A model generated the notes under the pieces. It was not told the origin of the DNA, made no database searches, and worked only from the letters and a program-made list of their open reading frames with translations. Both the position numbers and the translations under genes were made by a program. Below are positions 2,472-56,600 of a DNA stretch of 64,000 nucleotides, in pieces; position 1 is the stretch's first letter; every line of letters begins with the position of its first letter. The DNA is from Methanobacteriota archaeon (GTDB lineage Archaea; Thermoplasmatota; Poseidoniia; Poseidoniales; Thalassarchaeaceae), in assembly GCA_002716085.1 (NCBI GenBank), contig PAYZ01000017.1, positions 12,925-76,924 on the forward strand, written 5' to 3'.

Positions 2472-2564
2472 AGCCGATGAGAGACGAATGCAGACATCAG
2501 TATTTCGTATAAATGGATCAATTCACAGGAGTTTTGATTGAGTTAGTATCCCCTAGGAGGGCCG

Positions 2565-25221: not shown

Positions 25222-28200
25222 TTAGTTTTCATAATCGGGGTCAGGGACCCACTCCTCGGCAACAGAATCCCAAAGCCACCCGGGCTGGTCATCATACCTC
25301 TCCAGATGGTTGGTTTCGGCCGATTCAGATTCTTCCCACCATTTCTCATCAGTTTTTGACTTATGTCCTTCTTCGCCAAAATTTTCTTCGATCTGTGCTG
25401 GTTCCTTTGTTTGTTCTGAGTCTTCTTCATTTATCTCGATACCAATGAACCCTGTGAAATATGCCAACAGGGAAAGGGCGACTATTGCAACGAAGGCTAT
25501 TGCTCCAATGGCGAACCAATCGGTCGACTGGGGCAAGGGTTGGCCCTTCGAAATTGGTTCTACAACGGTAGTCTGGCCGCTATAGTCGAATTCCGGAGTT
25601 GATGATTCTTTAATGCGGGTCCCGGGAACGCCCAGCTCCCATGTTCCGTTTTCTGAGATGATTGTTGTATTAACCGGAACTCCTCCGATTAGCACCGAGA
25701 CTTGCTTTCCGGGAAGTCCTATTCCAGAGTACAATGCAACCTCCTGTTCATCAAACCAAGACTTCTCAGGCTCATTAATTGAGAATACCAGAGGAATGAC
25801 ATCGAAGTTTATCGGGTCTGAGTTTGCCTTTGAGTCCCAAGCATCGGTTGCGATGAAAATTACATTGCTCAGTGACCAAGTTTCCATGTCGTCGTCATAG
25901 TATAGCATGTCTGCTGGATCGAAACGAGCAACCCCATCAGAACCAACCCCCACTACCAGTTCGTGCATATCATCGTTGGGGGAAGAAATGTCATTGTATA
26001 CTGAGAAGAATTCGATGTCGTTATCCTCGTCGAAGAAGAAGTCTTTGAGATCGATCTCGACGGAGGTGCACTTGTCTACAGAATTGGATTCTGAGTCGCA
26101 ATAAAGGGTGATCTCACTATCCCAGTTCGAAGAGTCGAATGCTGGTTTATTGTTGCCAGCGTTTGGTGGGTTATCTGCGATAATCGTAACTTGTGACCAG
26201 TCGCTGAAATTCAACCCGTCATATGATCTGAATCTCAGTAGATACTCTGAGTCATGCCGGAGTTGCGTTGTGTCCCAAACTATCTCCCACTCACCGTCTT
26301 CTGAGAATTCGCTAGTACTAGTCTCGAAAACCAAAATGTAGTCGTTTGTAGCGTCTTTTACCTCCATGTCGACCCTGGTGACTTCCCCATCGAAGTCTCT
26401 GGCAATTCCACTGATTTGAGTGTCCAGGGAAGAAGAAATCCTCGTTTCCGAAATTGGCTGGTTAACGCTTATTGTTGGCCTGCTATTCCTGTGATCAATG
26501 GTGAGAGTAAGAACGACTGGTTGACATTCGTCAATTTCCCCGTCGCAGAAATCTGAATCTGAGGTCCAGATCGTGAAAGTGTAAGTCTCCAGTTCTCTTG
26601 GTCTTGTGCTGAAATCCCATTCCCAGTTCCAAGTTCCATCTTCATTAGTTTGCACTGGAGTGATAGTTTGGTAATTTGGGCCGTCTATCTGGAACCACAC
26701 TAGGCCTACGTCCTTGTTACATTCAGATGGGCACCCATAGGGATCTTGGGAAGACCCCTCGAACGCAATTGACCCGTCATCATGTTGAGAAAATGAGCTA
26801 GGCGTAGATACGAAGGTGGTTGGGGGTTGGGTGTTTAGTTTAATTGTCCTAGACACTATTGGGCTGTAGTCAATTCCATCAAACGCCCGGAACTCGAAAG
26901 TATAGTCGCCTTCCACAGCTAGTCCTTCTAGATCTATGGTGTAGAACCAATCCTTGTATGGATGATTAAATCTGGTAACCTCGCCGACCAATGCTCCGCT
27001 GTTGTCCACTGCAATTTCAGAGTCCTCCCAGGAGCTAGTGAAGGGGTTCTTGACCTGGACGTAGTGGACGAAGCCTCCTTGGTCCCATTGGGCCAGCTCG
27101 TCACTTGCATAGCTATTCGCTAGTTGGCCATCGTGAGCACTTCCTGTTATGTTTACTATCCTCCTGTATGAGTGCCCGTCCTGCTCAGTGACTTGCACGG
27201 AAGGAGCGGCGTTAACGAGGTGCGCGGTTTCTTGGAGTGAGTTTTCTTCTAGTATAAATTGTCCGCTATAGTACCCGAAACCAAACCTGTATGCCGTATA
27301 TCTGTAAAGGGACATCTCCCTAGTTCCCGCCGAATAGTCGCAACTGGGATCATTGGTGTCTATGACCAAGTCTCCGTCATTATCTATGCCATCCGAGCAG
27401 GAGTCCTCGAACTGGTCGTCTGCGAAGCCATCTGGATTATCCCCTCCCTGCAGGCCTCTAAAGTCTAGGTGAAAGTTTGATGGGAGTGCTATCCATGGGG
27501 TGAAGCCGTCTTCGAGAGTCTTTACTCGGTAGAGGTCGTTTCCTACGGCATCCTCTACAATTACCATGGCATCAGAAACCTTCTCACCTTCTATCAGAGT
27601 TTGGAATCTTACTAGTTCCGCCCTACTTACCTGGACGGCGTAGTGAGTAGGTTGGGTAGCAATCTTGATGTTGCCAAGGTTTAGATTAGTCAGGTTTGCG
27701 AATGTAAAGACTGTCGAGTTGTTGTCCATGCTGAGGCCGAGGGGGAAATTTCTAGGAGTCATATTTTTGCAATTGGCGCACTCCTTGACGGGGGTAGGCA
27801 GAATCTGACCTTGAAATCCATTATCCGGCCATGCTTCCTGGTCAGGCCAGGACAATCTGACGGGATATTCCCCTGTTGGAGGGGATGGAATGTACTCTGA
27901 CTGGGCAGTAATAGAGCTCTTTGTGACATTGTATGTGGACTCGACCTGGTTCCAGTTGTTTTCTGAGAAGTAAGCAAGAGATCCATACTGCTCTCTCTCA
28001 GCGTATCCCGTATCGAAGTTCTTAATCACGGCCCCTGTCTTCTGAACATCGAAGGAGTTCCTCTGGATATCCAATAGGGACCCGATGGCCCTGATTCCAT
28101 CGGCATTCCCTCCGGCACTAATCGTGTTGTCGTACATCGTAACTCCAGTAACATATGCATGGACCACAGGACAAGGGAATTGGCCGTCCCAGTGGGTATT

Positions 28201-29535
28201 GCTATTGCAGGTCCCAGTACCGTCATAGGAGATGGTATTGTTTGCAAGGAATAGCCTCGAAGCTGCCTCTATGGCATTGGAATAGAATCCTGCCACCACA
28301 GGTGTTAGGGTGGTCTGGAAGATGGAGTTGTTTTCCGCAATTACGTCAAAGGATCCGCCGAGCCATAGCCCGAAGTACCCGTCAATGGGGCCAATTTCAT
28401 TGCCATGGATGCTAACTTCGCTATTGTAAACCTCTATCCCAGAACGTGAGCCGGCTCCTTCTATGTCATTATTCTCGAGGGTAACTAGGGCTCCAGCATA
28501 CGCAGTCACTCCAGTCCCATCTGTTGTGGTTATCTCATTATTGGAGATTTGGAAGTCGAAAGATGAGGTTCCCACTGCCTTCTTCGCGTAGACGTCTATT
28601 CCATTGCAATCCACGTTAATTACTGAGTTTGTGACTTTTCCAGCCGATGACCTCAGAGAGACCCCAAAATCCCCTGAAGGAATGTCCATGTTATCGATCT
28701 CTATGAATGACTTATCGGCCCAAATTACGTGCCTCCCATCATCATTATTCTGACAACCGTTGTTGGTGCCTGTTAGGCTAATATCAGAAATTGAGAATGG
28801 ATTTACCGACGAACCCGAGGAGAAGATTTGCAGTGCTCCGCCTACAATTCCTGTGTTTTCATCCTGCCCAACTGAGAATTGGCCCCCATTAATAGTTGGT
28901 TGAGCTAGATTTGTAGTAAGTACGCTAGAAGTATTCACCTGATTGAAAGAAAGCTCAGTTAGTGTTGGGCTGGCACCGTCTAGAACAAGTGCACCATATC
29001 GGAATTCCCCAATTGAAGAGATGTAGTAGGGAATCCCCCAAGGACCATCGAAGACAACATGCCTTAATTCGGTCTCAGCTAGATCGATAGAACTCCTCAT
29101 CAAGACTCCCTCGAAGCATGATGGATCCTCTATCCATATTTCCTGGTTTCCTGAGCTTAATCCGTAGCATTTTCCTGTTGCACTAGAGTTTTCTGGCTCC
29201 TCCCACCTAAGTGTGATTTGCATCGCTGGGTTGGAATTCGACGGGGCATTGCAATTTGTTGATCCTGCGCAGAGGCTTCCCCTAACATCCAGATGCGTGC
29301 CGTTAGGAAAAGTCACCAGAGCTCCCGGATTGATGATCAGCTTGGCACCAGGAGCGATAGTTACATTCCCAGTTAGAGTGTGTACTCCTGCCCATGTTTC
29401 GGTCTGAGTAATGACTCCAGATGTGGTTTCATTTTGGGCTGACACTGTTCCGGCTGGAATAGCTAGTGACAGCAAAACACTCAGCAAGAACAAACCGCTT
29501 AGTGAAATGGAGCTAAGCTTTCCATTCCCCACCAT
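25222..29535 (-). CDS. Giant cell-surface protein (1437 aa): beta-helix, SCSDGIDNDGD motif, Ig/PKD-like domains, C-terminal TM and acidic tail
   Basis: Signal GLFLLSVLLSLAIPAGTVSA; NDIEGAGSRSGIEVYNSEVSIHGNEI beta-helix; SCSDGIDNDGDLVIDTNDPSCDY; TM FAIGAIAFVAIVALSLLAYFTGF; tail DDQPGWLWDSVAEEWVPDPDYEN. Confidence 0.8.
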   Translation of the reverse strand: MVGNGKLSSISLSGLFLLSVLLSLAIPAGTVSAQNETTSGVITQTETWAGVHTLTGNVTIAPGAKLIINPGALVTFPNGTHLDVRGSLCAGSTNCNAPSNSNPAMQITLRWEEPENSSATGKCYGLSSGNQEIWIEDPSCFEGVLMRSSIDLAETELRHVVFDGPWGIPYYISSIGEFRYGALVLDGASPTLTELSFNQVNTSSVLTTNLAQPTINGGQFSVGQDENTGIVGGALQIFSSGSSVNPFSISDISLTGTNNGCQNNDDGRHVIWADKSFIEIDNMDIPSGDFGVSLRSSAGKVTNSVINVDCNGIDVYAKKAVGTSSFDFQISNNEITTTDGTGVTAYAGALVTLENNDIEGAGSRSGIEVYNSEVSIHGNEIGPIDGYFGLWLGGSFDVIAENNSIFQTTLTPVVAGFYSNAIEAASRLFLANNTISYDGTGTCNSNTHWDGQFPCPVVHAYVTGVTMYDNTISAGGNADGIRAIGSLLDIQRNSFDVQKTGAVIKNFDTGYAEREQYGSLAYFSENNWNQVESTYNVTKSSITAQSEYIPSPPTGEYPVRLSWPDQEAWPDNGFQGQILPTPVKECANCKNMTPRNFPLGLSMDNNSTVFTFANLTNLNLGNIKIATQPTHYAVQVSRAELVRFQTLIEGEKVSDAMVIVEDAVGNDLYRVKTLEDGFTPWIALPSNFHLDFRGLQGGDNPDGFADDQFEDSCSDGIDNDGDLVIDTNDPSCDYSAGTREMSLYRYTAYRFGFGYYSGQFILEENSLQETAHLVNAAPSVQVTEQDGHSYRRIVNITGSAHDGQLANSYASDELAQWDQGGFVHYVQVKNPFTSSWEDSEIAVDNSGALVGEVTRFNHPYKDWFYTIDLEGLAVEGDYTFEFRAFDGIDYSPIVSRTIKLNTQPPTTFVSTPSSFSQHDDGSIAFEGSSQDPYGCPSECNKDVGLVWFQIDGPNYQTITPVQTNEDGTWNWEWDFSTRPRELETYTFTIWTSDSDFCDGEIDECQPVVLTLTIDHRNSRPTISVNQPISETRISSSLDTQISGIARDFDGEVTRVDMEVKDATNDYILVFETSTSEFSEDGEWEIVWDTTQLRHDSEYLLRFRSYDGLNFSDWSQVTIIADNPPNAGNNKPAFDSSNWDSEITLYCDSESNSVDKCTSVEIDLKDFFFDEDNDIEFFSVYNDISSPNDDMHELVVGVGSDGVARFDPADMLYYDDDMETWSLSNVIFIATDAWDSKANSDPINFDVIPLVFSINEPEKSWFDEQEVALYSGIGLPGKQVSVLIGGVPVNTTIISENGTWELGVPGTRIKESSTPEFDYSGQTTVVEPISKGQPLPQSTDWFAIGAIAFVAIVALSLLAYFTGFIGIEINEEDSEQTKEPAQIEENFGEEGHKSKTDEKWWEESESAETNHLERYDDQPGWLWDSVAEEWVPDPDYEN

Positions 29536-29612: not shown

Positions 29613-30848
29613 CTAAGCTATTCCAAACTCCAAAGCAACCTGTTCGGACCATTCAGCAGCATCTAGCAGACCATATCCAGTTTTTGTGTTGTGCTTTGAG
29701 TCTTGGTTAGGAGCTGGTCTTGCAGAATTGGCTAGCGCGACCTTTACTAGCTGCATTTCATGCTCATCGAAAAACTGGTCATCTCCTGAAATTGTGTCCC
29801 CATGTAAAGAAAGAATCAGGGAGAGTGCCCCGGCAACTAGAACTGTGGAGTCACTAGTGCCTGTTGAATAGGCATAAGGGGGTTCCTTGTCTGTGGAGAT
29901 GCATGACCATAGAAGGACTCCGGGAGCCAAAATCTCTGGCTTCTGATTGGGAAAAACTCTGTCCTGATTAGTCTCAGGATCAGTTATTGATCCTCTTGCG
30001 CTGTCGATCCATGGATCTCCTCCCCTCCCATGGGCCCCTACAGCTATCACCCCAGGAATGCTAGCTGGAGATGAAACGTCCGAATTGTTGGACTGTAGAT
30101 CGAAATTTCCTGCAGCGGCTACGACGAAAATTCCTTCCGATAGCGCCTCCCTTACTGCTTCGGAAGTTTCCGATGACGATGTGCCCCCATTTTCCGCCCC
30201 ACTTCCCAAACTCAGAGAAATAATGTCTGCTTCCTGGGAAATCCTACACCATCTTATTGCCTGCGAAACCATCTTCTCGTTTGCAGATTTGCCAGTAGGA
30301 CCTAGAGCAATTGCTACCGAAAGGGAAACTTCTGGAGCTGCACCGGTAAATGTTCCATTTCCTACGAGAAGTCCTGCCATCAGAGTGCCATGGCTATCAG
30401 AACCTATGTCTCTGATGGCCTCGCTGTTTTCGAAATAGAAGTCCCTGAATCCACTAATTTCCAAATGTGTAAAGTCTGGGTGAGAAGGGTCGATACCTGT
30501 GTCTACTATGCAGACCCGAACTCCTTCTCCGAAAGTCCCTTCTCCTTGTAAGTCGCGGATTCCGCTTTCTTGGTATGCCCACTCCGAATCGGGAAGGACC
30601 TCTCCTAGAAGAGGGGCTATGGAAGGGTACAGTAGGATGAATGAGGCCACTACAGCAGAGAAACCAATCGCCCCCCAAGGCCACAGGAACCTAACTATCG
30701 GACCCATGGGCCACCTAAGCTGTCTAGCCTCATCGTCAGAAAGTCCGTAAGCATCTCCTGGATATCCTGGAGCATCACTGTCTACAGCGGTAAGGATACT
30801 GGAATCTTCTGGTTCCGGCATTAGCTCAAGGTGCCTTATCCCACTCAT
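29613..30848 (-). CDS. Membrane-anchored subtilisin-like serine protease (S8)
   Basis: VCIVDTGIDPSHPDF (Asp), GSDSHGTLMAGLL (His), VVAAAGNFD (Asn), GTSDSTVLVAGAL (Ser); N-terminal TM. The listed ORF to 30938 overlaps the next gene, so internal ATG 30848 is preferred. Confidence 0.88.
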   Translation of the reverse strand: MSGIRHLELMPEPEDSSILTAVDSDAPGYPGDAYGLSDDEARQLRWPMGPIVRFLWPWGAIGFSAVVASFILLYPSIAPLLGEVLPDSEWAYQESGIRDLQGEGTFGEGVRVCIVDTGIDPSHPDFTHLEISGFRDFYFENSEAIRDIGSDSHGTLMAGLLVGNGTFTGAAPEVSLSVAIALGPTGKSANEKMVSQAIRWCRISQEADIISLSLGSGAENGGTSSSETSEAVREALSEGIFVVAAAGNFDLQSNNSDVSSPASIPGVIAVGAHGRGGDPWIDSARGSITDPETNQDRVFPNQKPEILAPGVLLWSCISTDKEPPYAYSTGTSDSTVLVAGALSLILSLHGDTISGDDQFFDEHEMQLVKVALANSARPAPNQDSKHNTKTGYGLLDAAEWSEQVALEFGIA

Positions 30849-30879
30849 GCTGATCGTTGCCAGCGTACTGGTGTTAGTA

Positions 30880-33800
30880 TTAGAACGGGGCGCTGACCCT
30901 TCTTCCGGGCCTCTTTGTGAAGAATAAGAGAGCGGCAATAAGAAGGATTACGAAGACATATGCCATATATTTCAGGTTTTCATTCTCCTCCGAAGCAGCC
31001 CACAACTGAGCCTCTTCGACACAAGATGGCTTGCCTTCTGCTGCTTGTGTCCCGCATGGCTCGGATCTTTCGCCTAGATCCTCACCTACGATCTGGAACA
31101 GGATAAAGAAATTCTTCGACTCTTGGAATTGTGTGTAGTCCATTTCCATGTAAAATGTGGTTTGGTTCTGACTATCGACATCAGCAGTGGCTGAGAAGTT
31201 GACACCCGCCTCAGTTTCACAGCGAATATCTTCACAAAGTGTCGCCAGGAGGGTTACATCTTTGGCGGCTACATTTCCAGAGTTTGAGACGATGACTGAA
31301 TAGGTTTCAATTTCTCCGAATTCAGCGAACTTGCCCCCTAGGAGCCTTAGACTATCGTCATCCCCAACAATTGAAAGTGAGGGTGAGTCCAAAATAAGAG
31401 TAGACTCTCCAGAGTATGAGTTGTTTGATTGGTCTGTTACATTGTATCGGATAGTCTCAGCGTATTGGCTAGGGAACTGGTGCAGGGGCTTCTTGACTAG
31501 GGTGAATGTCGCGATTCCATCCGAGAAAGGTGATGACGGTTGGGTTAGTGGCCCTGTCAAGTCCCAGCCGTCTGGAGTTTCGAATTCGAAGGAGAATATC
31601 TCGTCTGCGTTTCCGAGATTCTTGAATGGGATTTCGATAGAAACGGTGGTTTCGTCTGGTCCGAAGTATAGTGTATCTGGATTTGTCATCTCGAAATCCC
31701 TAATTGCAGGGATTTTCACCTTGACCTCAGACTGAGTAGAGTATCCCTCGTTAGTCGAGAACTTGAGTAGAATCCTGTGCCCATCAGGGAAGTGGTGAGC
31801 AAGGCTGCTATTTGCAGGAGTGACCCTAATTTTGATGCTCTTGGAGATTTCATTATCTAGGCCCATGTCAAAAGAAAGGCTCTCGTTCCAATTTCCAGTC
31901 CCATTCTCGAACTCAACCTTCCAATTCAGGCCGTCCATACCGGGAACGGTTCCTGATACTCGGTATGAGTCAAACGAGTTGTGCCCATCATAGTCAGCTC
32001 TGAGTGTGAATTCTGCGTTCTGGTAAGTGCATCCTTCTGTGCAGCTAGGATCTTGCTTGGCTACGGAGACTGTTTCTCCAGAAACGGTTGATATTACTAT
32101 GTCCTGCTTTGACTCCCTTTCTATGTTCAGGGTAACAATTGGGCTTTCCTGGCCAGACCTGATTGTGAATCCCTTCCCTCCGGAATATGTTACATTCCTG
32201 CCACTCTCAGGCAATACGAACTTGCTTGATGCTTGAACAAGTCCAGCAGGGAGGAGCATCCGGAGATGCCCTTCGGAATCCAATTCTTCCAACCATGCTA
32301 GGTTACCGATCTCGATGAAAAGATCGTAATCTGGCGGATCTGGGAGTCCATCTAGGTCTTGGAGTTCTTTCTCCACTCCTTGGAAGTCGAGCCACCTAGT
32401 GTCTAGGTCCAGGTTTCCGCCTATTGCAAATTCTGAATCAATAGTGCCGCCATCTACGCCAACGCCTATTGATTCGATGGAGACCAGGCCTTGGCATTCA
32501 GTCGAGCTCATTTCCCCCGTTGTCATTGCGTAAACTATCCAGGTTCCGGGCTCTACAGATGCGGTCCACTCCCCAGTAAATCCTGAGCTGTCCAGATTTT
32601 CTACTCTTGTCGCAGAGACCCTCTCTCTTGAGAAGTCTCTGGGAGGAATTAGGGTAACTTGCCACTCCCCTTCCGTTACGCAAGTCTGATCGAGATATGT
32701 TATTTGTCCGGAAATCTCGACTTCGCCAGCTGAAATCTCTATGTCTTTGGCAACTGATTCCATTGCAACTTCGAGTGAGCTATTTTCGGTTTCAAATCCT
32801 TCCAACTCCACGCTAACGTTCCAGATGCTTTGGGCCGGAAGGAAAGTTGACCAAGCCCCTGTAGAGCTAGAGTTTGTTGAGAAGGCAGGGGACGAAGAGT
32901 TTCCTGAGTTGTTCAAGGAGAAAGACACAGTAGCATTTGGCAGGCCCTCGAATACTCCTGCATTGCCATCATCGTTCAAATCCCAGAAAACTTTACCACT
33001 GGCCAAGACTAGGTATTCCACCATCTTTGTCACTTGGTGTTCTGATCCTGCGGAAACGCCAGAGTCAGCTAGAGGCGAGTTTTCGAGGAGGAGTCTTACC
33101 CCGTTTTCATCGGTTTGGTTCATCCGAATGTTCCAGTTTCCTGGTGTAGTCCTGATTAGGACAGGTTCGGTGAATCCTAGATGCGAGACTATGAAAGATC
33201 CTAGGCCATCTTGGGATTCTATAACTAGTTCCAGAGACTCCAGATATTCTTCTTGAATGCTTGAATTAAGAGTGACTGTGAATTCTGCTAATTGCCCGGT
33301 TCTTAGGTTGTTCCTAACTCCAGCAGTTGACTGGTTCACTGAGATCAGCGATCTTAGTCCTTCGAAAACTCCATTGTTAGTCTCAAACTCATCTACTATT
33401 ACAATCCATTCTCCTTCCTGCACATAGTCAGCGATTGTTCCATTTTCGTCGGTAGTGAAAGTCTGAATCCAGTTGTTTTCGGTGTTCTGGAGCTTGACAA
33501 TGTGGTTTACCATTCTTTGGTCACTCTCATTTCTCAGGGTGATGTTTAGAAGCCACAGTGGTTCGAAACCAATAGATCTCTCAATTGTGGATGAGTCGAG
33601 TCCGACGTCGAATATCTCATTGGTGTCATACAGGGTGTCGAAAGGATCGTCCAAAGAAGCATTTGCCCTTTCCACTACTATCCTGTACTTTCCTGGCTCA
33701 AGAGAAACTTGAGCAGAGCCGGTGGAAACCCAGGAGCTGTCCTCAAGTTCTACAGAGAGTCCGGATCCATTGGAGGTTAGTGGGATGATCTCGAATGGAT

Positions 33801-36800
33801 AGCTGACTGGAGTGCCGTTAGTTACGTTGTTATCGCCTTCATGATCTATGTAGAAATCAATTACCACAGTGCTGTTTTCATCCGGGTCTGAGATAATTAG
33901 TAACTCTACATTTGAGCTCTCGCTGGCGTTTACTGTTTTGGTCTCTGAAGATGAAGCCATCTCTCCAGCTTCAAGGGTGAATGACCAGTTTCCTAAGGGG
34001 AGAAGCATGTCGAATTTCCCTAATTCATCGACTTCCTCCCTCCAAACTGAATCGGAGCTACCATCCAAGTTGTTTGCAATCGCATGCACTGACTTCCAAT
34101 CTTTGAAAGCCTGATTGTATGCATTTCCCTCTCTGTTGAAGCTTACACTTCCGAAAACCATAGAGGATTCTATCAATTCGATTGTTATTGGCCCCATACC
34201 CTCTGAGACTACGAATCTTGTTCCGTTGGAGAGAAGTCCACCGGAGCCAACTGTGCTCTCGGAAGTGGCATTTACGTGGGCGCCTATTGGTAGTACTATG
34301 CTGAAGTCACCATTGGAGTCACTTGTTGTGGTGAGTGAAAATCCTGACCATTGGAATTCTACTTCTTTGAAGGCCGCAGGGGATCCCGATTGGCCCTCTT
34401 GGGAATCGAATCCTGGTTTGAATAGGATGCTTCCATTGACCGAGTGGCTAACTCTGAATTGGTATGATTGGCCCGTGGAGTCATCTTCTCCTACCTCTAT
34501 TCTCTCCCATAGCTGCTTATCTTCGCTTAATGTGTAGTTCATGATCCAAGTTCCAGGCAGCAATTCCACCGAGTAAGTCTTAGATTGGTTGTCAAACAGT
34601 GCTATAACCTGGGACAATGACTGGTTCTCGGGTCTGAGAATTAGTTCTAGGCCATCTACAGAATCTCCATCGTCAGAGAGGGAGAATGTTAGGTCAGAAG
34701 TCTTGGGTACTGTGGATGGGAATGATGCTAGAGAAGCTTGTTCTGGGGAGAAGATGAATTCCTGTCGTATCTCTGGGAATCCATCATCATCGATGTCAAC
34801 AGAAGCCAAGTATGAGCCTGGTATAACTGGGGACACTTCGAATGATCCATTCTCGTCAGGTAAGGCAAAGCAGGGAGGCACTATCACAAGTCCGCACTCT
34901 GTTGTAGCATTATCGGAAGACCCGTTGATGGCATAAATCTCAATCGGACTTTCAAGGGGATCTCCAGAGTGCATTGATACAGTTCCCTTTATCGATCCCC
35001 CGAATATTGACACTGGAGAAGGTGCTTCTGAGGGAGATAGCGGTATTGTGAATGTATCAGTTAGAAGGACGATATTTTCCCCGCCGAAATCGACAGAAAC
35101 GGTGTACTCGCCTGGAAGTGCGTCCACTATGTGGAAAGTCCCCGAGCTGACCATCGGCCCACTGAAAGAGCCGTTTCCGGAGAAAGTTCCAGAGCCATTG
35201 ATCGTGCCGAAATTTCCTGAGTCGGACTCTATTGAAGAGTTTGTTTCAAAGGTTCCCGAGCCGACGAATGTAGCTTGGTTGAGGTCCCGAGTGTACTCAC
35301 TAATTCCTTGAGAAGTGAATCTTCCGGATCCGTAAATTGATCCATTTAGTGCATATTCGCCCTCTTGGATCATGCATGCCTCAAATCCTGTAGGCACTTG
35401 TTGGCCATCTTGGCAAGATGTGACATCCCCAGATATTGATCCTACTAGGATCCCAATTCCAGTGAATTCTCCGTCTCCTACGATACTGTGGTTGTCGTAT
35501 ATTTTCTGCGTGTGTGTCCCAGTGAAGGCCTTGACAGACACTGCTCCATCTGAAACAACCCTCCCGTCACCGAATAGAGTAACCTCTCCATTCCCAGTGA
35601 AGTAAAGAGATTCACCAACCATTGTCCCGTTAGATGTAGGAGCCGAGTATGGGATGATTGAGACTTCATCGGAAACGGGAGTAAGGATAACCTGGGTATC
35701 AGCTACTGGTTCTCCATCGAAGTCCGGCTCGCCTGACCATGAGAGTAACCCTGTTGCAGATGACGGGAGGACTGAGATCGGAGCTTCGATTACTGATTTA
35801 CCATTGCTATGTCCGTCTTCACCGGACACGTTCACTATAGTTTCAGATAGCCAAGTCGAACCGTATACGTTGCCCAGAATTCCAGTTACTGGATTGATGT
35901 TTCTATTTGTTGATGACTCGGATAGCAACTCGTACATTGCTGATCCCATTCCAGTCATAATTGCCGACCTTCCAGATTCGATATCAGGATCCCCGGTGAA
36001 TGCTGAGATTCGGATTTTTCCTGATGGCACTATGAAACTGAATCTTCCTTCTTGATCCGATTGGGTGCTACCTATTGGGATCCAGAAGGTTCTGGAATCC
36101 CTATCCACGACATTTCCGAATTCGTCGGCATTTTCCTCTCCGCTAAATGCATCTCGCTCTATCAGAATCCTCGCATTTGGAACTGGCCCTATTCCATCCA
36201 GTGAAACGGTACCTTCAAGAGTTGCTCCACTATAGTACTTCAGGATCTTTACCAGTCTGTTTGAGTCGTATTCTGTTCCGCAGTATTTGTCCATCTGGCC
36301 GGAAATTGTAAGGACTGTTTCTTCGACTGTCGAAGATGCTGGAGAGTTCAAAGTAATTGTTTGTTCGTCTGAATCGTGATTGATCACATCCACAATGCCT
36401 GGAATTGGACCAGAGCTATCTTGTGAAGATGAAGACAAATTCCATGGCCCTCCGGATTGTATCTGTCCCCAGCCAGACAACAGGCTAGCATCCGAAGATA
36501 GTGTGACGTTTGTCAGAGTTGAGCTTCCCTGGGATGTAGAAGCGGTTCCGGAAATCTCAATTCTCTCGCATCCCGATCCATCATCTGGGTCATACCAGTT
36601 GGATAGCACGAAGTGATTCATCATTGCTCCAGGTAGTGCTAATGCGCCCTCCAAGTAGCTACCTGGTGATCCTGGAACGAAGTTTGGGGCTATCCAAGAA
36701 GATGGGGAGTCAGCATCACCTAATTGTCCTCCGGGAGATGGCAATCCCAGAGTCGATGTCCCGTATCCGACATATGTCCTAGCGACCATAGTATCGAAGA

Positions 36801-39800
36801 AAGCTGAGGTATGCTGGTAATCTATGTCAGTCATGGCAATCATGTCCTCTGCGGTAGTAGCCCCAGATGCCTGTGATCGGAGATCCTGCATATACTGGTC
36901 CTGATACTCTTGTGGGGTCATCATCCCCTGGTTGGTCTCATATGTGGTGGTGATGTATGTGTCAATGTCCAATCCGGAAAGGTGTGTTGGAGCGTGGAAG
37001 ATTCCGGTTGTTTGACCTCGGTGGTACCCTGAGTAGTCGGCATAGTATTTTCCTCCGAGAGGGAACAGCTTATTGTCCACGGCAAAGTACCTTATTTCGT
37101 GATTCCTACCTGCAGTTTCCCCATATGGTAGACCGTAATCGCTTACTTCATAGGAATCTATCGATGAAATCCCATCATATATCTGTACTAACTGGCTCAG
37201 ATTGAATGCAGTAATGAGGAACGCCCTCATTAGTCCGAAGTTTGCATTGGCTCTATGAAGTGCTGTGGAAACGTCATAGTAGTCGACAAAAAGGTCGTTA
37301 GTATACCGGTATCCAGCAAGATCGTAGTGAGTGGGGTTGTCCTCATTCAAATCATACGAAGATGAGGACCCTCTTGCCTCATCGAACAATGAAAGGGCTT
37401 CCGACCTATTCGTAGTAGCTTCTCCGAATGCATCTCCGTCTTTGATGACAACCCAGAATTCATCATCAAGCGGGATTCCTTCTTCATCCAGCATCTTCCC
37501 CTTTAGCAAGTCCGTATTTCCGTATTCCGCAACAAGAGACATGGACCTATCTCTCAAGAAGTCCAAGTCATTGTTGGTGATAATCTCTTCAAATTCAACG
37601 ACTTGTTCGGGAGACATGCTTTCGTTAATTACTGAAATGAAATCGTCTGTAAGACCGCCTCCATTGATCTTTCTGTCACCCATGGCTAGCGTAGCTATGA
37701 ATAAAGAAAGAGTATCCTCCTGGCCAGCCGATAGTAGCAAGGCACCACTGTTAGGAATTCCTGACTGGAAGTTGTCTGCCACAGTTGGATGCTGTCCCGA
37801 CGATAGGGCTTGGAATCCATAGTCCCACCAAGATACGAATGCCGGCCTTTGGCTGAATTCTATATCGCTATCTTGTTTTGAAAGCCAATCGTAGGCCTGG
37901 TTCCAACCCTGTGAGTTGAATGAGGGGCCAAAAGTGCCCATGTACCATAAACCAGATTCGGCAGGGTCGTATTTGTCACTATTCATTATTGAGAAAAGGT
38001 TGAAGAAATCCTGCCTCAAAATGTCTGGAGCAATGTTGTAGATGCTCTCATCTATCTCATATGCCGCCTCTTCCCCTCTAGGAATCCCGGAATCTATTCC
38101 ATAAGTGGTATGTTGGGAAGTAATTAGTAGGATGACGAGTATCATCGCAGGGACCCCCGGCTTAGACTTTGAAGCCGGCCAGATTGATCGGAATCGAGTC
38201 CTAGGAGTCCCAATTCCTGAGTTTCTCCATACTTTGGTGAAAGCTGGGAAATTCGCTCCCGTCCAGAGCATGGAGATTCCGATTCCCCCTGCAACTGCCA
38301 TAGCAGGTGTTGCATTGATGATGAACCTGCCAGCTGTCCAAGCCATGTAGGTTGCAATGATTGTCCATAGACCTAGTAGAGTGAGGTCGGCCTTGCTCTT
38401 TCTACTGCCCCTCCAAAGAAGAACGAACGAGCATCCTATCGCAATGAGGGCCACTATAGGCCCATATGATGCAAATAGAACCCCTCTGTCCGGAGCCTGG
38501 GCCTCACCAATGGTGCCAAAGATCTTGTTCTTGGAGAAGTAGAATCCTCCCGTGAAAAGTATGTCCCAGCCAGCGTACACTTCTGCGATCTGTAGCAGGT
38601 AGAGCAAAGCTAGGATTGAGCCGAAGAGTGTGCCTCCGCCCATCACGACAAGAAGCCATGGCTTGTCTCGGAAAGAGCTTGAAACCCATCCAACTGCGAA
38701 TGTGAAACCGATAATATACAACATTGGCTGCATTCCGCTGGGTGCGAAAAGCAGATTCATACCGGGCCATGCATAGAATGGTGCAGGGATTAATATCGAG
38801 GTAATCATCATCTGAAGGGCCGCAGAAGTGAACTGTAGACTATCCCTTCCCCTGAAGATGTTAATTACTACTTGGAAAGAGTAAGCCAAGAATAGGATAC
38901 CCGGGCCGTAAACGAATCCTTTCCAACCTAGAGCCATTACGGAGAATGCTATTCCCGACATAGTGGCATTGGCCATCAATACGGGATTGGTCTTCCACGT
39001 CTCCCTCATTCCAGCAACGATGTAAAGTGGATTTCTACTTGCAGATCCGAAAACGTTCTTGTTTTCTACATTCTCTACGGCTCTGATCCAGAAGTAGAAT
39101 GCTATTGCAAGGAATAACATCGCGAACGAGTCGTGGTCTGACATTGCGAATGTAGAACGGCTCATATGGCCGGGCATAAGTGCGATGAGCCATGCTGCAA
39201 AAATTCCGGCTGATTTGCTATGGACCCTACTGGCAATTCCTGCTACTGGGATCACGATCATAGCACCATAAATTGCCGGAAGTGCTGACATGGACCACCA
39301 AACTGCTTCTTCTGGAGCGATTTCCAAAACCCAAGAGAGAGCAAGTGCCCCTAATGCCAGAGTCCAAGAGAATAGTGGTGGTCGGGGGTTAATTCCCCCA
39401 CTTGGATATGATCTATCGTGATCGTAAATCAGGTGGCTCCTCTCAGCAATTACGAAGTCAACCACTCTCTTCATGTACCAAGGATCTGAACCTCCAGTCA
39501 TGTCCCAAAGCCCAGTCCCGCTAGCATTCATGGCCGGAATAACATTCCAAGCTGTTCTGACCACTAGGGCTACTATGAATGCAATGGAGATCATCAGAGG
39601 GTACGAGTTTAATTCCCACCAGACTCTGAATCCGCTTCTTTCACGGCTTGGAGCGATGTCACCGAATATCCCCCTAGAGGCAAAGAAAATTGCGAAGAAG
39701 TTGAGCCAGAATCCTAGGAAGAACCATGAGAACGATCCTATGAATCCATCCTCGGAGAATATTGATGGGAGCTCGTTACCAATCTCATGCAAATGTCCAA

Positions 39801-40671
39801 TGGTGTATAGGGCCCAGTTCACTGCGAGCATCGATCCTAAAACATGCCAGCCCTCTGACCTGAAGAAAGAGTGCAGTAAAACTACCAAACAAGAGAATAT
39901 GGCCCAAACTACCCCTAGATGGCTTCCTTTCGCGAATTCCTCCAGGGATTCTAATTGTCCGATCCATACCAGTGGGGCTAGGAAGCCAGCAAAGATCAAT
40001 GAAGAGTAGATTAGCACCTCTTTGTTTTCAGTGGGCAGAGGAATGGCGGAAAATAGAGGGCCGTCCCCCCTAGACTCTGTTGATCCTCTCAATGATATAG
40101 CAATTAGGGCCCCTAGAGAAATGGAAGCGAACCAGAATGAAAAGAATGAGCTGCCTATTGATGCCCTCTGGATATCGATCAGAGCAGAAGTGGAGTCTTG
40201 TGAGATTTCTAGACCGGACGAATATAGAGCTGATAGCCTAAGCCCCAATACCACAGACAGGAATACTGCAGATTCCTCGAACCTCCTGCTCTCGTTCAAT
40301 GCAGCAGAGGCAAATCCTACCAAAACGAATGTGAAAATGAACATGTGATTGAAAGGGACTGGACTGACAAGATTTGCGACAATTGAGAAAATCAACAGAG
40401 CTGTTGTGATTGAGAGCGTACGCAATGTTCCAGAATTCAGGGGAATGCTGGTGCTGGCCCTTCCTATGCAAGCAGGTGCTAACACTGAAAGCGAAATTAA
40501 TGATGCGTCCGAGAAGAATTGTGAATCCAGTGATCTTCCATCTAGAGAAGATGCTACCAACAGTAGCCCAACAAGGGCGAATGTGATGGCCGTTGGCGTG
40601 ACCATCTTGAGGGTCAATTTGCCATCTTGGGATGCTTCATTATCAGTCTCCATCCCATCCACCGGACCCAA
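30880..40671 (-). CDS. aglB: Oligosaccharyltransferase STT3/AglB with giant C-terminal extracellular extension (3263 aa)
   Basis: Multi-TM N-terminus, GGSDPWYMKRVVDF, WWDYGFQALSSGQHPTVADN (WWDYG); then carboxypeptidase-regulatory/Ig-like repeats and terminal TM YMAYVFVILLIAALLFFTKRPGRR. TTG start at 40671 or internal ATG at 40653. Confidence 0.9.
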   Translation of the reverse strand: MGPVDGMETDNEASQDGKLTLKMVTPTAITFALVGLLLVASSLDGRSLDSQFFSDASLISLSVLAPACIGRASTSIPLNSGTLRTLSITTALLIFSIVANLVSPVPFNHMFIFTFVLVGFASAALNESRRFEESAVFLSVVLGLRLSALYSSGLEISQDSTSALIDIQRASIGSSFFSFWFASISLGALIAISLRGSTESRGDGPLFSAIPLPTENKEVLIYSSLIFAGFLAPLVWIGQLESLEEFAKGSHLGVVWAIFSCLVVLLHSFFRSEGWHVLGSMLAVNWALYTIGHLHEIGNELPSIFSEDGFIGSFSWFFLGFWLNFFAIFFASRGIFGDIAPSRERSGFRVWWELNSYPLMISIAFIVALVVRTAWNVIPAMNASGTGLWDMTGGSDPWYMKRVVDFVIAERSHLIYDHDRSYPSGGINPRPPLFSWTLALGALALSWVLEIAPEEAVWWSMSALPAIYGAMIVIPVAGIASRVHSKSAGIFAAWLIALMPGHMSRSTFAMSDHDSFAMLFLAIAFYFWIRAVENVENKNVFGSASRNPLYIVAGMRETWKTNPVLMANATMSGIAFSVMALGWKGFVYGPGILFLAYSFQVVINIFRGRDSLQFTSAALQMMITSILIPAPFYAWPGMNLLFAPSGMQPMLYIIGFTFAVGWVSSSFRDKPWLLVVMGGGTLFGSILALLYLLQIAEVYAGWDILFTGGFYFSKNKIFGTIGEAQAPDRGVLFASYGPIVALIAIGCSFVLLWRGSRKSKADLTLLGLWTIIATYMAWTAGRFIINATPAMAVAGGIGISMLWTGANFPAFTKVWRNSGIGTPRTRFRSIWPASKSKPGVPAMILVILLITSQHTTYGIDSGIPRGEEAAYEIDESIYNIAPDILRQDFFNLFSIMNSDKYDPAESGLWYMGTFGPSFNSQGWNQAYDWLSKQDSDIEFSQRPAFVSWWDYGFQALSSGQHPTVADNFQSGIPNSGALLLSAGQEDTLSLFIATLAMGDRKINGGGLTDDFISVINESMSPEQVVEFEEIITNNDLDFLRDRSMSLVAEYGNTDLLKGKMLDEEGIPLDDEFWVVIKDGDAFGEATTNRSEALSLFDEARGSSSSYDLNEDNPTHYDLAGYRYTNDLFVDYYDVSTALHRANANFGLMRAFLITAFNLSQLVQIYDGISSIDSYEVSDYGLPYGETAGRNHEIRYFAVDNKLFPLGGKYYADYSGYHRGQTTGIFHAPTHLSGLDIDTYITTTYETNQGMMTPQEYQDQYMQDLRSQASGATTAEDMIAMTDIDYQHTSAFFDTMVARTYVGYGTSTLGLPSPGGQLGDADSPSSWIAPNFVPGSPGSYLEGALALPGAMMNHFVLSNWYDPDDGSGCERIEISGTASTSQGSSTLTNVTLSSDASLLSGWGQIQSGGPWNLSSSSQDSSGPIPGIVDVINHDSDEQTITLNSPASSTVEETVLTISGQMDKYCGTEYDSNRLVKILKYYSGATLEGTVSLDGIGPVPNARILIERDAFSGEENADEFGNVVDRDSRTFWIPIGSTQSDQEGRFSFIVPSGKIRISAFTGDPDIESGRSAIMTGMGSAMYELLSESSTNRNINPVTGILGNVYGSTWLSETIVNVSGEDGHSNGKSVIEAPISVLPSSATGLLSWSGEPDFDGEPVADTQVILTPVSDEVSIIPYSAPTSNGTMVGESLYFTGNGEVTLFGDGRVVSDGAVSVKAFTGTHTQKIYDNHSIVGDGEFTGIGILVGSISGDVTSCQDGQQVPTGFEACMIQEGEYALNGSIYGSGRFTSQGISEYTRDLNQATFVGSGTFETNSSIESDSGNFGTINGSGTFSGNGSFSGPMVSSGTFHIVDALPGEYTVSVDFGGENIVLLTDTFTIPLSPSEAPSPVSIFGGSIKGTVSMHSGDPLESPIEIYAINGSSDNATTECGLVIVPPCFALPDENGSFEVSPVIPGSYLASVDIDDDGFPEIRQEFIFSPEQASLASFPSTVPKTSDLTFSLSDDGDSVDGLELILRPENQSLSQVIALFDNQSKTYSVELLPGTWIMNYTLSEDKQLWERIEVGEDDSTGQSYQFRVSHSVNGSILFKPGFDSQEGQSGSPAAFKEVEFQWSGFSLTTTSDSNGDFSIVLPIGAHVNATSESTVGSGGLLSNGTRFVVSEGMGPITIELIESSMVFGSVSFNREGNAYNQAFKDWKSVHAIANNLDGSSDSVWREEVDELGKFDMLLPLGNWSFTLEAGEMASSSETKTVNASESSNVELLIISDPDENSTVVIDFYIDHEGDNNVTNGTPVSYPFEIIPLTSNGSGLSVELEDSSWVSTGSAQVSLEPGKYRIVVERANASLDDPFDTLYDTNEIFDVGLDSSTIERSIGFEPLWLLNITLRNESDQRMVNHIVKLQNTENNWIQTFTTDENGTIADYVQEGEWIVIVDEFETNNGVFEGLRSLISVNQSTAGVRNNLRTGQLAEFTVTLNSSIQEEYLESLELVIESQDGLGSFIVSHLGFTEPVLIRTTPGNWNIRMNQTDENGVRLLLENSPLADSGVSAGSEHQVTKMVEYLVLASGKVFWDLNDDGNAGVFEGLPNATVSFSLNNSGNSSSPAFSTNSSSTGAWSTFLPAQSIWNVSVELEGFETENSSLEVAMESVAKDIEISAGEVEISGQITYLDQTCVTEGEWQVTLIPPRDFSRERVSATRVENLDSSGFTGEWTASVEPGTWIVYAMTTGEMSSTECQGLVSIESIGVGVDGGTIDSEFAIGGNLDLDTRWLDFQGVEKELQDLDGLPDPPDYDLFIEIGNLAWLEELDSEGHLRMLLPAGLVQASSKFVLPESGRNVTYSGGKGFTIRSGQESPIVTLNIERESKQDIVISTVSGETVSVAKQDPSCTEGCTYQNAEFTLRADYDGHNSFDSYRVSGTVPGMDGLNWKVEFENGTGNWNESLSFDMGLDNEISKSIKIRVTPANSSLAHHFPDGHRILLKFSTNEGYSTQSEVKVKIPAIRDFEMTNPDTLYFGPDETTVSIEIPFKNLGNADEIFSFEFETPDGWDLTGPLTQPSSPFSDGIATFTLVKKPLHQFPSQYAETIRYNVTDQSNNSYSGESTLILDSPSLSIVGDDDSLRLLGGKFAEFGEIETYSVIVSNSGNVAAKDVTLLATLCEDIRCETEAGVNFSATADVDSQNQTTFYMEMDYTQFQESKNFFILFQIVGEDLGERSEPCGTQAAEGKPSCVEEAQLWAASEENENLKYMAYVFVILLIAALLFFTKRPGRRVSAPF

Positions 40672-40713
40672 TAGCCATTGATATAGCAGCGCGCCGACCT
40701 GAACGCTTGTTTT

Positions 40714-40732
40714 AACCGTTCGTAGAACGGTT
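40714..40732. promoter_or_regulatory. Perfect inverted repeat AACCGTTC-GTA-GAACGGTT upstream of aglB
   Basis: 8-bp perfect arms with 3-nt spacer, in the only noncoding gap between purD and aglB; no strong T-tract on the exit side of either strand. Confidence 0.55.
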
Positions 40733-40764
40733 GGAAAAAATTGCTCCAGAGAATAGTGAAAAAT

Positions 40765-42892: not shown

Positions 42893-44581
42893 ATGGAAAG
42901 AAGTAAATCAATTATGATCAGCATCATTCTATTGGCCTCATTGGTTGCAAGTACGACTAATTCTTCTGCCGATGGTGAGGACATTATCGTAGAGTCAAAT
43001 ATGACGTGGTCTGGCGAGATGACTCTGTCTCAGAATGTCAGGATCTTGAATGGTGGGTCCCTCAGTTTCGTTGATTCCAAAGTAAACATTAGCAGTGGCG
43101 TAGGAATCTACGTTGACGCCTCTTCATCATTGAGTCTGGAGAGTTCCGAATTATCCTCAACTCACCCCCCTTCTGGGTTGGCTGGATTCGGTTACTGCGA
43201 TGAAGACAACAGATCATCGGTAAGGGTCTTCTCTCAATCTGAACAAAATATTAGGGCCTATTTGAGGCCAATTCAGGGATTCTCCCTTGACGGTGTTGTC
43301 GCATATTTCGGTAACGAAACCAAGGATCTCAGTGGTGAAGAGGATTTCATACCATTGGGAAGTGGCTCTGTCGACATCTGGATTGGTTTGACTGGGCCAT
43401 TATGCCATCCAGTTTCCCTAAGTGAGATTAGTATCGAAAGAGCAGGGCAAGAGAGAGTTTGGTTGGATGCTGCAGATTATGAGCATCGCAATTTTATGGT
43501 ACATGGAGATCCGGGGTTCTCTATCGATATAGATGGCTCGATGCAATCAAACGGATCTTCAATCTTCGGTGGAAGGATTTCATCCTACGGATACCTCAAC
43601 ATTAGTGATTCATCACTAGATAGAGTTGGGCCCATTCTACTTGCCAATGATGATGCTTCTCTTGTGCTTGGGGGAAATACCAAAATCACAAACAGCACTG
43701 ATGACCACGATGTTAGAGCAAGGGCGTGGTCACCTATAGAATGGGGTGACGGCGTTAGTGGTTCTGGCGGCCTGACCGATAAGTGGGAAAGGAGGTTGTC
43801 TGGACAGAAGCTTTCATTTGATGCAATTTATGTTACATTTGAGATCAGGGGCATGCACAAGTTCCCAAGTTACTCAAACTTCAGCAATGAGCTGGGGATC
43901 TCATTCGTGGATGGGGGGAAGGAAAGGGTCGTTGAGATTGCATGGTCAGAAGATAACACTTGGGAAGAGGCTCCCATCTGGACCGAGAATGCTACCGTAG
44001 TGATTACCGAATATAGGACTGCTTGGAATCCGGAGGCTTCAGGAATTTTGGACTACGGTGGCGGGCAATTCGATCTACCGTGGGAGCAAGAAGTCTGGGT
44101 TAGGACTGGGACGCCGATGATAGAGTGGGTTTCATTGACCCCCATGGGCGAAGATGGAATATTGGGCGAGGCATCAATTGGGGATTCAGTAAATGTGGAA
44201 GCCGTGATCTCTAATTCTGGAACTGCCGCAGCATCCTTGGCGATCGGATGTAAAGACTCCAGTGGTGTTGAGGCTCAGGTTTCACCCCAATTCCCAAACG
44301 CAATTATTGAGCCAGGGACAGAAAGAACAATTTCATTCAGTTGGAGATCTTCAAGCACTGGAGAAGACTATCTAAATTGTAGGGTTCTTACACCTACACA
44401 ACTAGTGGAAGAGTCTGCTTTCGGAGGCGGGGAGATGGAAACTAGTAACCTAAGTTGGATTGATTCTTCGGATGATAATGGAGGCGAAAGAAGCATACTT
44501 CCTGCTCTAATTGTTGTTCTAATTTCGGCAGCAATAGGTGGCCACTTTCTTTTCAGGATATACCGAGAAGACGAAATATGA
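42893..44581 (+). CDS. Exported membrane-anchored protein with CARDB-like domain
   Basis: Signal SIMISIILLASLVASTTNSSA, beta-rich body, NVEAVISNSGTAAASLAIGCKDSSG CARDB-like, C-terminal TM ILPALIVVLISAAIGGHFLF. Confidence 0.7.
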   Translation: MERSKSIMISIILLASLVASTTNSSADGEDIIVESNMTWSGEMTLSQNVRILNGGSLSFVDSKVNISSGVGIYVDASSSLSLESSELSSTHPPSGLAGFGYCDEDNRSSVRVFSQSEQNIRAYLRPIQGFSLDGVVAYFGNETKDLSGEEDFIPLGSGSVDIWIGLTGPLCHPVSLSEISIERAGQERVWLDAADYEHRNFMVHGDPGFSIDIDGSMQSNGSSIFGGRISSYGYLNISDSSLDRVGPILLANDDASLVLGGNTKITNSTDDHDVRARAWSPIEWGDGVSGSGGLTDKWERRLSGQKLSFDAIYVTFEIRGMHKFPSYSNFSNELGISFVDGGKERVVEIAWSEDNTWEEAPIWTENATVVITEYRTAWNPEASGILDYGGGQFDLPWEQEVWVRTGTPMIEWVSLTPMGEDGILGEASIGDSVNVEAVISNSGTAAASLAIGCKDSSGVEAQVSPQFPNAIIEPGTERTISFSWRSSSTGEDYLNCRVLTPTQLVEESAFGGGEMETSNLSWIDSSDDNGGERSILPALIVVLISAAIGGHFLFRIYREDEI

Positions 44582-53618: not shown

Positions 53619-56600
53619 TCACTCTTCGGGCTCTAATTGTAGATGCCCTCTAGTTGGAATCTCCTCTATAGCCTCAATCTCCTGAGTAACAGAAGATAGT
53701 GCGAGTTGGGCATTGTCCCTGTGTGAGTCTCCAAGTAAGTGGCTGGAGTATCTGGCTTCCTCGAAAATCCTGTCTAGGGACACTAGGGATGCCTCACTTA
53801 TAGGTAGGGCCTTCCTGATTGCCGATTCGAACTCCCTAACTGTCTCGAAGTTTCTTCTGAGGAATCCCCTGCGCGTCAAAACCGCGCATAGATTCTGGTA
53901 GCAAAGGAAGATTGCCTTCCTGTACTCGTCGCCCGACGCAAGCATCTCAGCTGTCTGATTGAAAACACTAGCTAGCTCTTTAATTGCTGACTTCCTCCTC
54001 ACATTTAGGAGCATTGATCCGAGGGCTAAAGCTACTGCTGCAGCCAGTATAGCTCCAATGGCAATGGTAGTTACTCCCAAGGAGTCAGAATTCTGCTGTT
54101 CATACTCAATCTGTACCCCCGAGGCGGGAAGTAGTGCCAAGCTAGCCGGATCCAAGAAATCGGAGTCGGAAGAGATCATGACGCTGAGATCGCCCCACGC
54201 GGAACGGTCCGAAAGTGGGGGCATTGGTGAAATTGACTTGAACTCGTAATTGAAAACGCCTTCTTCATCGGTCAGCTTCGACATGGAGAAGTGATTGATG
54301 CTGCCATTGAGAAGGATTGCAGTTAGCGAGAGTCCTTCCAGTGGTGCACCCGTGTCTCTTGCAGTTGCGTTTACTGTCCCCCTGATGACCCTCTGGCCAT
54401 TTGAAAGCTCGATACCTGAAAGCAGGAAATCGACCTCAACCATAACCATGACTTCAATATCCCTCGACCCACCATTCAGGAATCTGCTCTGATCTGATTC
54501 TACCTCCAATGTCAAGGAGTTCTTACCGGGATCCAAGAATTCCTGTGCCTTTGCGATAATCTGGAAATTCATTGTCGCCTGATTGTCCCACGGCCCTGAT
54601 GTTAATGGGAGGTCAGATTCGCCCCATAGTAGGGAAATTGTGAGGTTGGAAATTATCGCGGAGTCTCCACCAACTTCGCGAACAAGGCCCTGGACCATAA
54701 TTGAGCTAGAAGGAGAGGAATCTCCCCTGATTATGGTATTTGAAGAGGGTTGAATCTCGATGGTTACATCGGAAAGTACGAAAACTTCGAAAGTTGATTT
54801 GGAAGGAAGGTAAAGGAACTCCCCGCCGTAGGAGAAAGTGAAGTTGTGAGAACCTCTTGCCAATGAGTAATCCACATACTCTGAGAAGGTGAAAATACCT
54901 CCTACTTCAGTAATGACAGTTCCCACTTGGTCGCCATCCATCAAGATGGAAATCTCCCTTCCATCCATTCCCTGCTCGAAGCCGGTATCGGACTCGAAGA
55001 GTCGTCCTGAGAGGTTCCATTGTCCGCCTCTTGTGGAATACAATTCGTCCACTTGGAAGGAAATTGAAGTGTGGTAAGAAACTGTGAATGATGATTCTGT
55101 GGTTCCAATCCTGTAGAAGCCCTGCTCTGGAGCGATTGCTGAAACTGAGTGATTTCCGATTTCCAGAGATTCGGGGATTGTCCACTGTAAAGACCAAGTT
55201 CCATTTTCCATTGTGTTTGTAATCCCAACTAGAGACCCGTCTACGAATATCTCCACGGTATGACTCCCCAACCAACCATCTTCCAAGTTATCCTTCGCTG
55301 TTCCAGAAATTACCACTTGGTCCCCGACAGCGGATGGAGGAACTTCGTCTATTGATACAAATACGGGGGAGAAGACGGTGAACACAATTGACGAGTTGGA
55401 AGGTAGAATGAACTCCTCTCCGTCGAAATTTACTCCCACTAGCAATGGTCCTAGCTCCATATCTGGGGCTATCGGTATGAATCCGGAGAATGTGCCGTTA
55501 CTGCTCACTGATAGGTTGGTTAGAACCTGCCCGTTTACCGTGATGGATATCTCCCTGTCTGGGAGCGATCGTCCGACCCCATCAGTAAGAGCTCCTTCAA
55601 CTAAAGCTACTCCATTCCTGTCAACTTCTCCTGGTGGGGAAGATATTACCACCTGTGAGGTCTGAGTGACGTTGAATCCGATGGATGAGGAGGCGGATAG
55701 GTAGTACTCCGGATTTAGCGAGTCACCCTGGCCCATTGGGTCGACCCAGGAGAATCCGCCCAAGAAGTCGAATTCGGCTTGGTGTGGACCGAAGTCCATG
55801 TCCGAAGGGATCTGGTATGTAATCTCCCATAGTCCTGTTGTGGAGTTGGAAATTGTTGCGAATAATGGGCCCATGTCTACACCATTAACGGACAAGTGGA
55901 TCACGCCTCCCGAGACAATGCCATCATCCTTCAGTGGCTTGCCCCTCTCATCTAGGAGTGAACCGGTAAATGTGACGGTTTCACCCGCGAGTGAAGGAGA
56001 GGAGGTTTGATTGAGGGAAATCACAGTCGGTGCAAGGACGATTACCCTAGTCCAGGACTCGTCCCCCTCTATCCCTGTTGAGCCGTTTATTCCAGAGAAT
56101 GTTGCTGTGATCTGCATTGGTCCTGGATCCCTGTCCCCCCTTGCCAGTATAGAGGCCGAAGCAAGGCCATCGGGATCTGTAAGCCCGCCCCAAACTGTAC
56201 TGTTGTCGACTGTCACAACAATTGTTGCAGATGAGATTGGGGATCCTGAATTGTCTATCAAGGAGATGTTGAGGTCGATGGTTGATCCCCGAACTGTCCT
56301 GCTTTCAGGGTCCAAGTCGGTCGGGCTTAGAATTGAAAGCAACGAGTAACCCCTGCTTTCAAACGTCGCAAATGCTGAAGCGGAAGAGAAGTATGTTACC
56401 TGGGGGTTGAATTCCACGTCGACACCATGTGGACCCCGCGGGAAAGATAGGTCGAGTCTGATTTCTGCAGACCAAGTCCCATTTTCATAGAATGAGGTCT
56501 GTGAAACAATGAACGAGTCTGATTGCCCATCGATAGTGAAAATCAGAGTTGGGTTTAGGGGGTTGCCGGACCTGTCGGTCAATGAAGATCCGTTGCTCGA

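Follow-up and report, generated by a model that had tools for sequence, protein, structure and literature searches.

A gene on the minus strand of the window, as we call the whole 64-kb stretch of DNA analysed here, raises the question of why an archaeal oligosaccharyltransferase should be so large. The DNA belongs to a Candidatus Poseidoniales genome (MGIIb, Thalassarchaeaceae-like); members of this order are not known in culture and are among the commonest archaea of the surface ocean. A sequence-only reading had recognised the gene product as an oligosaccharyltransferase of the AglB type, with STT3 at the N-terminus of an uninterrupted frame of 3,263 aa and with a tail of about 1,800 aa. 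Is the protein an AglB, is the frame a single gene, and what might the additional sequence do? In open-access literature text we found nothing on the AglB of Poseidoniales or the oligosaccharyltransferase of Thermoplasmatota, and nothing usable on the surface structure of Poseidoniales; the three-part architecture set out below is apparently undescribed.

Enzyme identity and extent of the giant AglB

Profile and structure comparisons supported the recognition of an archaeal oligosaccharyltransferase, and the suspicion that STT3 might find no support there was dispelled. The Pfam STT3 model (PF02516) spans residues 394–792 with an E-value of 2.6e-11, above its cut-off, and the NCBIfam model TIGR04154 (archaeo_STT3) spans residues 360–982 with an E-value of 1.3e-43, a score below that model's strict 450-bit cut-off. 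The nearest solved structure is that of Archaeoglobus fulgidus AglB (AfAglB; profile against 3waj, E 3e-16), and the profile of the C-terminal globular domain also matches the AglB C-domains 3vgp and 3vu0. A search of the window's genome with PF02516 found aglB as its sole STT3 gene.

We observed the motifs of the family, whose roles are described in PMC8342417, in nearly all of 56 non-redundant relatives. The first DXD pattern, GG[SN]DPW, occurs in 56/56 and aligns with GGNDPWY of AfAglB; the second occurs in 51/56, with Asp-His-Asp invariant in 24, and aligns with the DHH region of AfAglB. TIXE and WWDYG patterns are each found in 56/56, the latter at residue 948 exactly as first read, and the catalytic columns are invariant. 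The sequence D...FF(D/E)TM.AR, conserved in 48 of the 56, is a candidate DK/MI motif. By these sequence tests the protein is a bona fide AglB, with activity predicted from homology and motifs. Its core would transfer a lipid-linked glycan to Asn-X-Ser/Thr of proteins outside the cytoplasmic membrane. A sequon, NAT at Asn786 (38314–38316, minus strand), lies within the STT3 membrane part and is kept in 50/56 relatives; it may be structural instead of glycosylated.

The reading frame is open without interruption, as had been claimed, but its start had to be corrected. A single open frame covers 30883–40764 (minus strand; 3,294 codons between consecutive stops), and the ORF beginning at TTG covers 30880–40671, corresponding to 3,263 aa. 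Because a Met at residue 7 is present without exception across 40 relatives, we place the start at ATG 40653, giving a protein of 3,257 aa. Base composition is constant along the gene. Published examples of AglB range from 754 to 1,054 aa (PMC5131992, Table 3). The A. fulgidus enzyme (3WAJ, 5GMY, 7E9S) shares with the window's protein the STT3 core, the DXD, TIXE and WWDYG motifs, the C-domain and the single-subunit form; however, the 3WAJ protein has 875 aa, compared with 3,257 aa here, and only the Poseidoniales protein has a ten-helix N-terminal domain, a beta tail and a C-terminal transmembrane anchor. An extra N-terminal membrane domain and a long C-terminal beta tail bring Poseidoniales AglB to about three times the size of a typical AglB (Table 1).

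Table 1. Positions in the window of the parts of aglB and of the adjoining subtilase gene; residue numbers here and throughout the text are those of the TTG frame of 3,263 aa
Feature	Coordinates	Strand	Basis
N-terminal membrane domain, residues 7–345, ten TM helices	39637..40653	-	Met7 invariance, AlphaFold2 model
STT3/AglB transmembrane catalytic part, residues ~346–869	38065..39636	-	PF02516, TIGR04154, AfAglB 3waj profile
First DXD-type motif, Asp396 in GGSDPWY	39484..39486	-	Pattern and AfAglB alignment
Second DXD motif, Asp512-His-Asp514	39130..39138	-	Pattern and AfAglB alignment
TIXE motif (TIGE, residues 720–723), external loop 5	38503..38514	-	56/56 pattern
Catalytic C-terminal globular domain, residues ~870–1360, includes WWDYG	36592..38064	-	AglB C-domain profiles
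WWDYG motif, residues 948–952	37816..37830	-	56/56 pattern
Variable insert, residues ~1361–1470	36262..36591	-	Gap-rich in order-wide alignment
First beta domain of the tail, residues 1471–1560 (conserved AglB C-terminal beta domain)	35992..36261	-	
Gly-rich long-strand beta region, residues ~1675–1845	35137..35649	-	Model strands, invariant glycines
Distal tail, residues ~1871–3230, beta-domain string, sequon-rich	30982..35061	-	Pfam, Foldseek, sequon counts
C-terminal TM anchor, residues 3233–3251, then basic end	30919..30975	-	Hydropathy, charge
Membrane-anchored S8 subtilase, first ATG 30848 (ORF listed 29613–30938)	29613..30848	-	Peptidase_S8

STT3 does lie in the N-terminal part of the protein, but not at the very N-terminus, since a ten-helix domain of about 340 residues precedes it. 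An AlphaFold2 model of residues 7–345 from 42 sequences (pLDDT 87.8, pTM 0.86) consists of ten long helices; with this even number, the N-terminus of STT3 is predicted to stay on its usual cytoplasmic side. The domain had no match in Pfam, among PDB sequences or among PDB folds, and on that basis we rejected its reading as a known transporter or glycosyltransferase. Of 293 Thermoplasmatota genomes, 81 carry it; every one of the 81 is Poseidoniales, and the match always lies inside the AglB frame or where a contig is cut off. It is a gain of Poseidoniales, as far as its distribution among these sequences tells. AglBs of two other families (f20 and f13; L093, L094) have a multi-TM N-terminal extension of their own, about 250 aa long and with no detectable relation to the Poseidoniales domain; these extensions do not align with it, so that the domain is not one shared with other long AglBs. 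The Poseidoniales domain is probably a fused accessory subunit that would pack on STT3, and it might dock the enzyme to Sec or to the supply of lipid-linked sugar.

Recurrence of the frame and probable growth of the tail

With the genome that contains the window being a 27-contig draft, an assembly or binning artefact could in principle have joined aglB to a separate surface-protein gene. We checked this, and a frameshift between the two parts, against other genomes. The full architecture recurs in 55 non-redundant relatives at 31–65% identity, and for that reason the ORF is not due to chance. We surveyed 195 genomes of the class together with 60 close relatives, and uncut copies are nearly all 3,100–3,335 aa long in both Poseidoniales families; in 80 named Poseidoniales/Thalassarchaeaceae loci the median is 3,195 aa for frames not cut by a contig end. 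The same single frame is found in dozens of independent assemblies; genomes from single cells (L106, L109) are represented, as is contig L147 of 363 kb, whose isolate name (PACB-20200310-m80) suggests PacBio long-read data. Most short copies end at contig ends or at Ns, and a few (L125, L150) stop early; in a one-contig genome (G037) the frame of the short copy is broken by assembly Ns and the tail resumes beyond them. This recurrence across independent and single-cell assemblies refutes a join or frameshift in practice and leaves the artefact scarcely credible. The ORF is neither a chance frame nor an assembly join.

Taken by itself the protein had looked like a lone oddity, a view that did not survive comparison with other genomes: AglBs of 2,000–2,744 aa are present in some 20 further Thermoplasmatota families, and the AglBs of the phylum as a whole span about 1,170 to 3,335 aa. 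In a tree built from the core, several deep forks of which are open, the giant state (at least 2,000 aa) requires 2 changes, compared with 8.4 when labels are shuffled, and there is one short exception. Giant AglBs thus appear to make up what is essentially a single branch of the tree. The long AglBs of other families have a homologous core, and profile comparison aligned the Poseidoniales tail colinearly with theirs, in several families up to the final transmembrane helix; unlike the Poseidoniales protein, they lack the N-terminal domain and are 600–1,100 aa shorter.

Across the phylum we detected the first domain of the tail inside AglB frames, in short members (~1,170 aa) as well as long ones. 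A search of 293 genomes with the conserved first 400 aa of the tail revealed no separate gene for this part in Poseidoniales, where full-length matches are AglB frames or cut contigs, and outside Poseidoniales the first tail domain matches mostly AglB frames. In view of the matches within AglB frames and the presence of the domain in short AglBs, we rejected the idea that a surface-protein gene was recently fused to aglB. Because the first domain is already present in short AglBs, and because the giants form nearly a single branch, AglB itself seems to have acquired the tail, once and long ago, as its own C-terminal beta domain was extended, with Poseidoniales as the extreme.

Composition, sequons and genomic setting of the tail

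The tail (residues ~1471–3230) measures about 1,750–1,790 aa, in line with the roughly 1,800 aa first estimated. It follows a variable insert that has about 75% gaps in the order-wide alignment, ranges from 11 to 111 aa across relatives and is long in just some members of the family to which the window belongs; in the window the insert is about 110 aa and contains two Cys. Regulatory and Ig-like domains ending in a transmembrane helix had been read from the sequence, and both were borne out. CarboxypepD_reg was detected in 21/21 tails, and NPCBM_assoc, SdrD_B, SpaA and CARDB in 6–8 of the 21, with beta domains of the CarboxypepD_reg/SpaA type coming first and Ig-like domains of the CARDB/NPCBM/DUF11 type near the C-terminus. 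The model of the Gly-rich region has strands of up to 42 residues, with pLDDT mostly about 90, and its glycines are invariant. Around the final helix, mean charge in 56 relatives is -1.6 before and +3.4 after; the basic residues behind the helix would place the tail outside the cell.

Conservation differs along the tail. Residues 1471–1589 are 47% identical between the two Poseidoniales families. The distal tail has a length of 1353 ± 26 aa (CV 1.9%), yet its between-family identity is only 25%; for comparison, a secreted neighbour (42893–44581) varies by ~12% in length, with some copies being cut. This pairing of fixed length with sequence drift suits a spacer or scaffold more than a conserved binding surface, although a small number of indel events could partly account for the constancy of length. 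Beta-domain strings expand readily, as the range of AglB lengths in the phylum illustrates, and the tail could have accumulated by neutral drift of the lineage with a role no greater than mild stability. We consider this quite improbable, given that the tail is colinear across Poseidoniales, keeps a near-constant length and has invariant residues throughout, and that giant forms cluster in what is nearly a single branch, a short AglB being the one exception. Since the extra parts are conserved, they are probably functional.

Sequons are enriched along the tail. We found 2.06, 2.54 and 1.80 times the expected number in the tail, and 0.38 times in the catalytic domain; a reversed sequon motif was near expectation. 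The best-conserved sequons of the tail lie near residues 1614, 1825, 2285, 2518 and 2923. Among the ORFs of the window, taken as controls, two TM-anchored secreted proteins are enriched like the tail and the cytosolic ones mostly are not; the tails of most other giant AglBs are enriched too. Such enrichment points to a place outside the cell and to probable glycosylation, but not to any particular function; the tail is most likely an extracellular substrate of its own enzyme.

In profile searches of the PDB, the tail matches NOMO2 best (9c7v, E 3.5e-6). NOMO, a component of the BOS complex of the ER, has 12 Ig-like lumenal domains that form a rod of ~27 nm, and one C-terminal TM helix (PMC12262048). 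The AglB tail follows the same plan, a string of extracellular beta domains with a single C-terminal TM helix, and the likeness is one of plan; NOMO is a separate protein, whereas the tail is fused to the STT3 enzyme. Homology was rejected, as the NOMO model PF22902 reached at best 21.4 bits in 26 genomes, compared with a cut-off of 27 bits, and also matched a bacterium. The match to NOMO2 is best explained by a shared domain type. The model of Ribophorin_I, an accessory subunit of the eukaryotic oligosaccharyltransferase, gave no match in 26 genomes, and the control genomes were equally without one.

A Foldseek search with residues 870–2069, the tail being modelled up to residue 2069, matched shafts of Gram-positive pilins and archaeal S-layer proteins (for example Sulfolobus acidocaldarius 8qox_B), with E-values down to 7e-9. 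TM-scores over the query are 0.05–0.13, and the tail lacks a pilus context; with scores this low the likeness is one of domain type and stringing, not that of a full homologue. AfAglB was absent from the best 50 matches of this search; the likely reason is that a truncated catalytic domain lacking the STT3 helices gives a poor model.

Poseidoniales have a fixed gene order, purD–aglB–subtilase. Every one of 82 loci has purD upstream, and in 75 of 76 the next gene downstream, on the same strand, encodes an S8 subtilase. The subtilase (Peptidase_S8, E 1.5e-37) has one TM helix before the protease domain and retains its catalytic motifs in 82–85 of 85 copies. It may process AglB or AglB clients, or merely share the operon. 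One consequence could be that the tail is a surface glycoprotein released or remodelled by the subtilase, a single gene providing both an oligosaccharyltransferase and a coat or adhesin ectodomain. The constant adjacency, the mostly intact protease motifs, and a tail that is rich in sequons and folds like surface and pilus proteins are consistent with release. However, the tail retains its C-terminal TM anchor, no subtilase adjoins the giant AglBs that were checked outside Poseidoniales, and the protease may act on other proteins or simply belong to the operon; we regard release as unlikely.

Two large surface proteins are encoded nearby. The product of 25222–29535 (minus strand; 1,437 aa) is a beta-helix/Ig surface protein with a signal peptide and a late TM helix, and in most Poseidoniales loci its gene is the second one after aglB. 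The product of 53619–62627 (minus strand; 3,002 aa) is a surface protein with 85 sequons, 2.6 times the expected number, in which we detected Transglut_core, MG2, Big_3_5 and CarboxypepD_reg domains and a C-terminal DUF4129.

Very large, sequon-rich neighbours such as the 3,002-aa protein would be natural clients for a capture arm, in which the tail binds or chaperones nascent multi-domain surface proteins and so makes glycosylation of very large targets more processive. Oligosaccharyltransferases elsewhere have accessory subunits with lumenal domains, which also speaks for such an arm. A client-binding surface should nonetheless be conserved, whereas the distal domains are only 25% identical between families and the first part of the tail is the only one that is well conserved. 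We doubt that capture is the tail's main role.

A proposed scaffold role and its implications

Based on sequon enrichment and conservation of length, which favour a glycosylated scaffold, we infer a scaffold role as the best-supported reading. We propose that Poseidoniales AglB is an active-type oligosaccharyltransferase with a built-in, self-glycosylated, doubly anchored scaffold and a fused N-terminal accessory domain, and we give this proposal about even odds (a probability of roughly 0.5). The predicted extracellular rod of beta domains carries sequons for its own enzyme and is probably self-glycosylated. The C-terminal helix would anchor the rod a second time, producing a loop of near-fixed length held at two points. 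Such a rod would most likely act as a scaffold or spacer that fixes the position of AglB in the space separating the membrane from the cell coat and that keeps nascent surface glycoproteins close to the active site.

A more ambitious form of the scaffold proposal, which we offer tentatively and think possible but not probable, is that of an oligosaccharyltransferase holoenzyme in one chain, combining the ten-helix domain with a self-glycosylated, doubly anchored, NOMO-like rod that bridges membrane and coat, is possibly trimmed by the subtilase, and exists in shorter form in the Thermoplasmatota branch. If this were true, the glycosylating enzyme would itself be a structural part of the cell surface.

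How Poseidoniales build their surface is little known, and the giant AglB bears on that. The N-terminal domain represents an unclassified membrane fold. An oligosaccharyltransferase that has seemingly absorbed its accessory parts offers a natural test of why the eukaryotic enzyme needs separate subunits. The giant form spans a broad branch of Thermoplasmatota, some members of which may grow more easily, making the function of the giant AglB testable.
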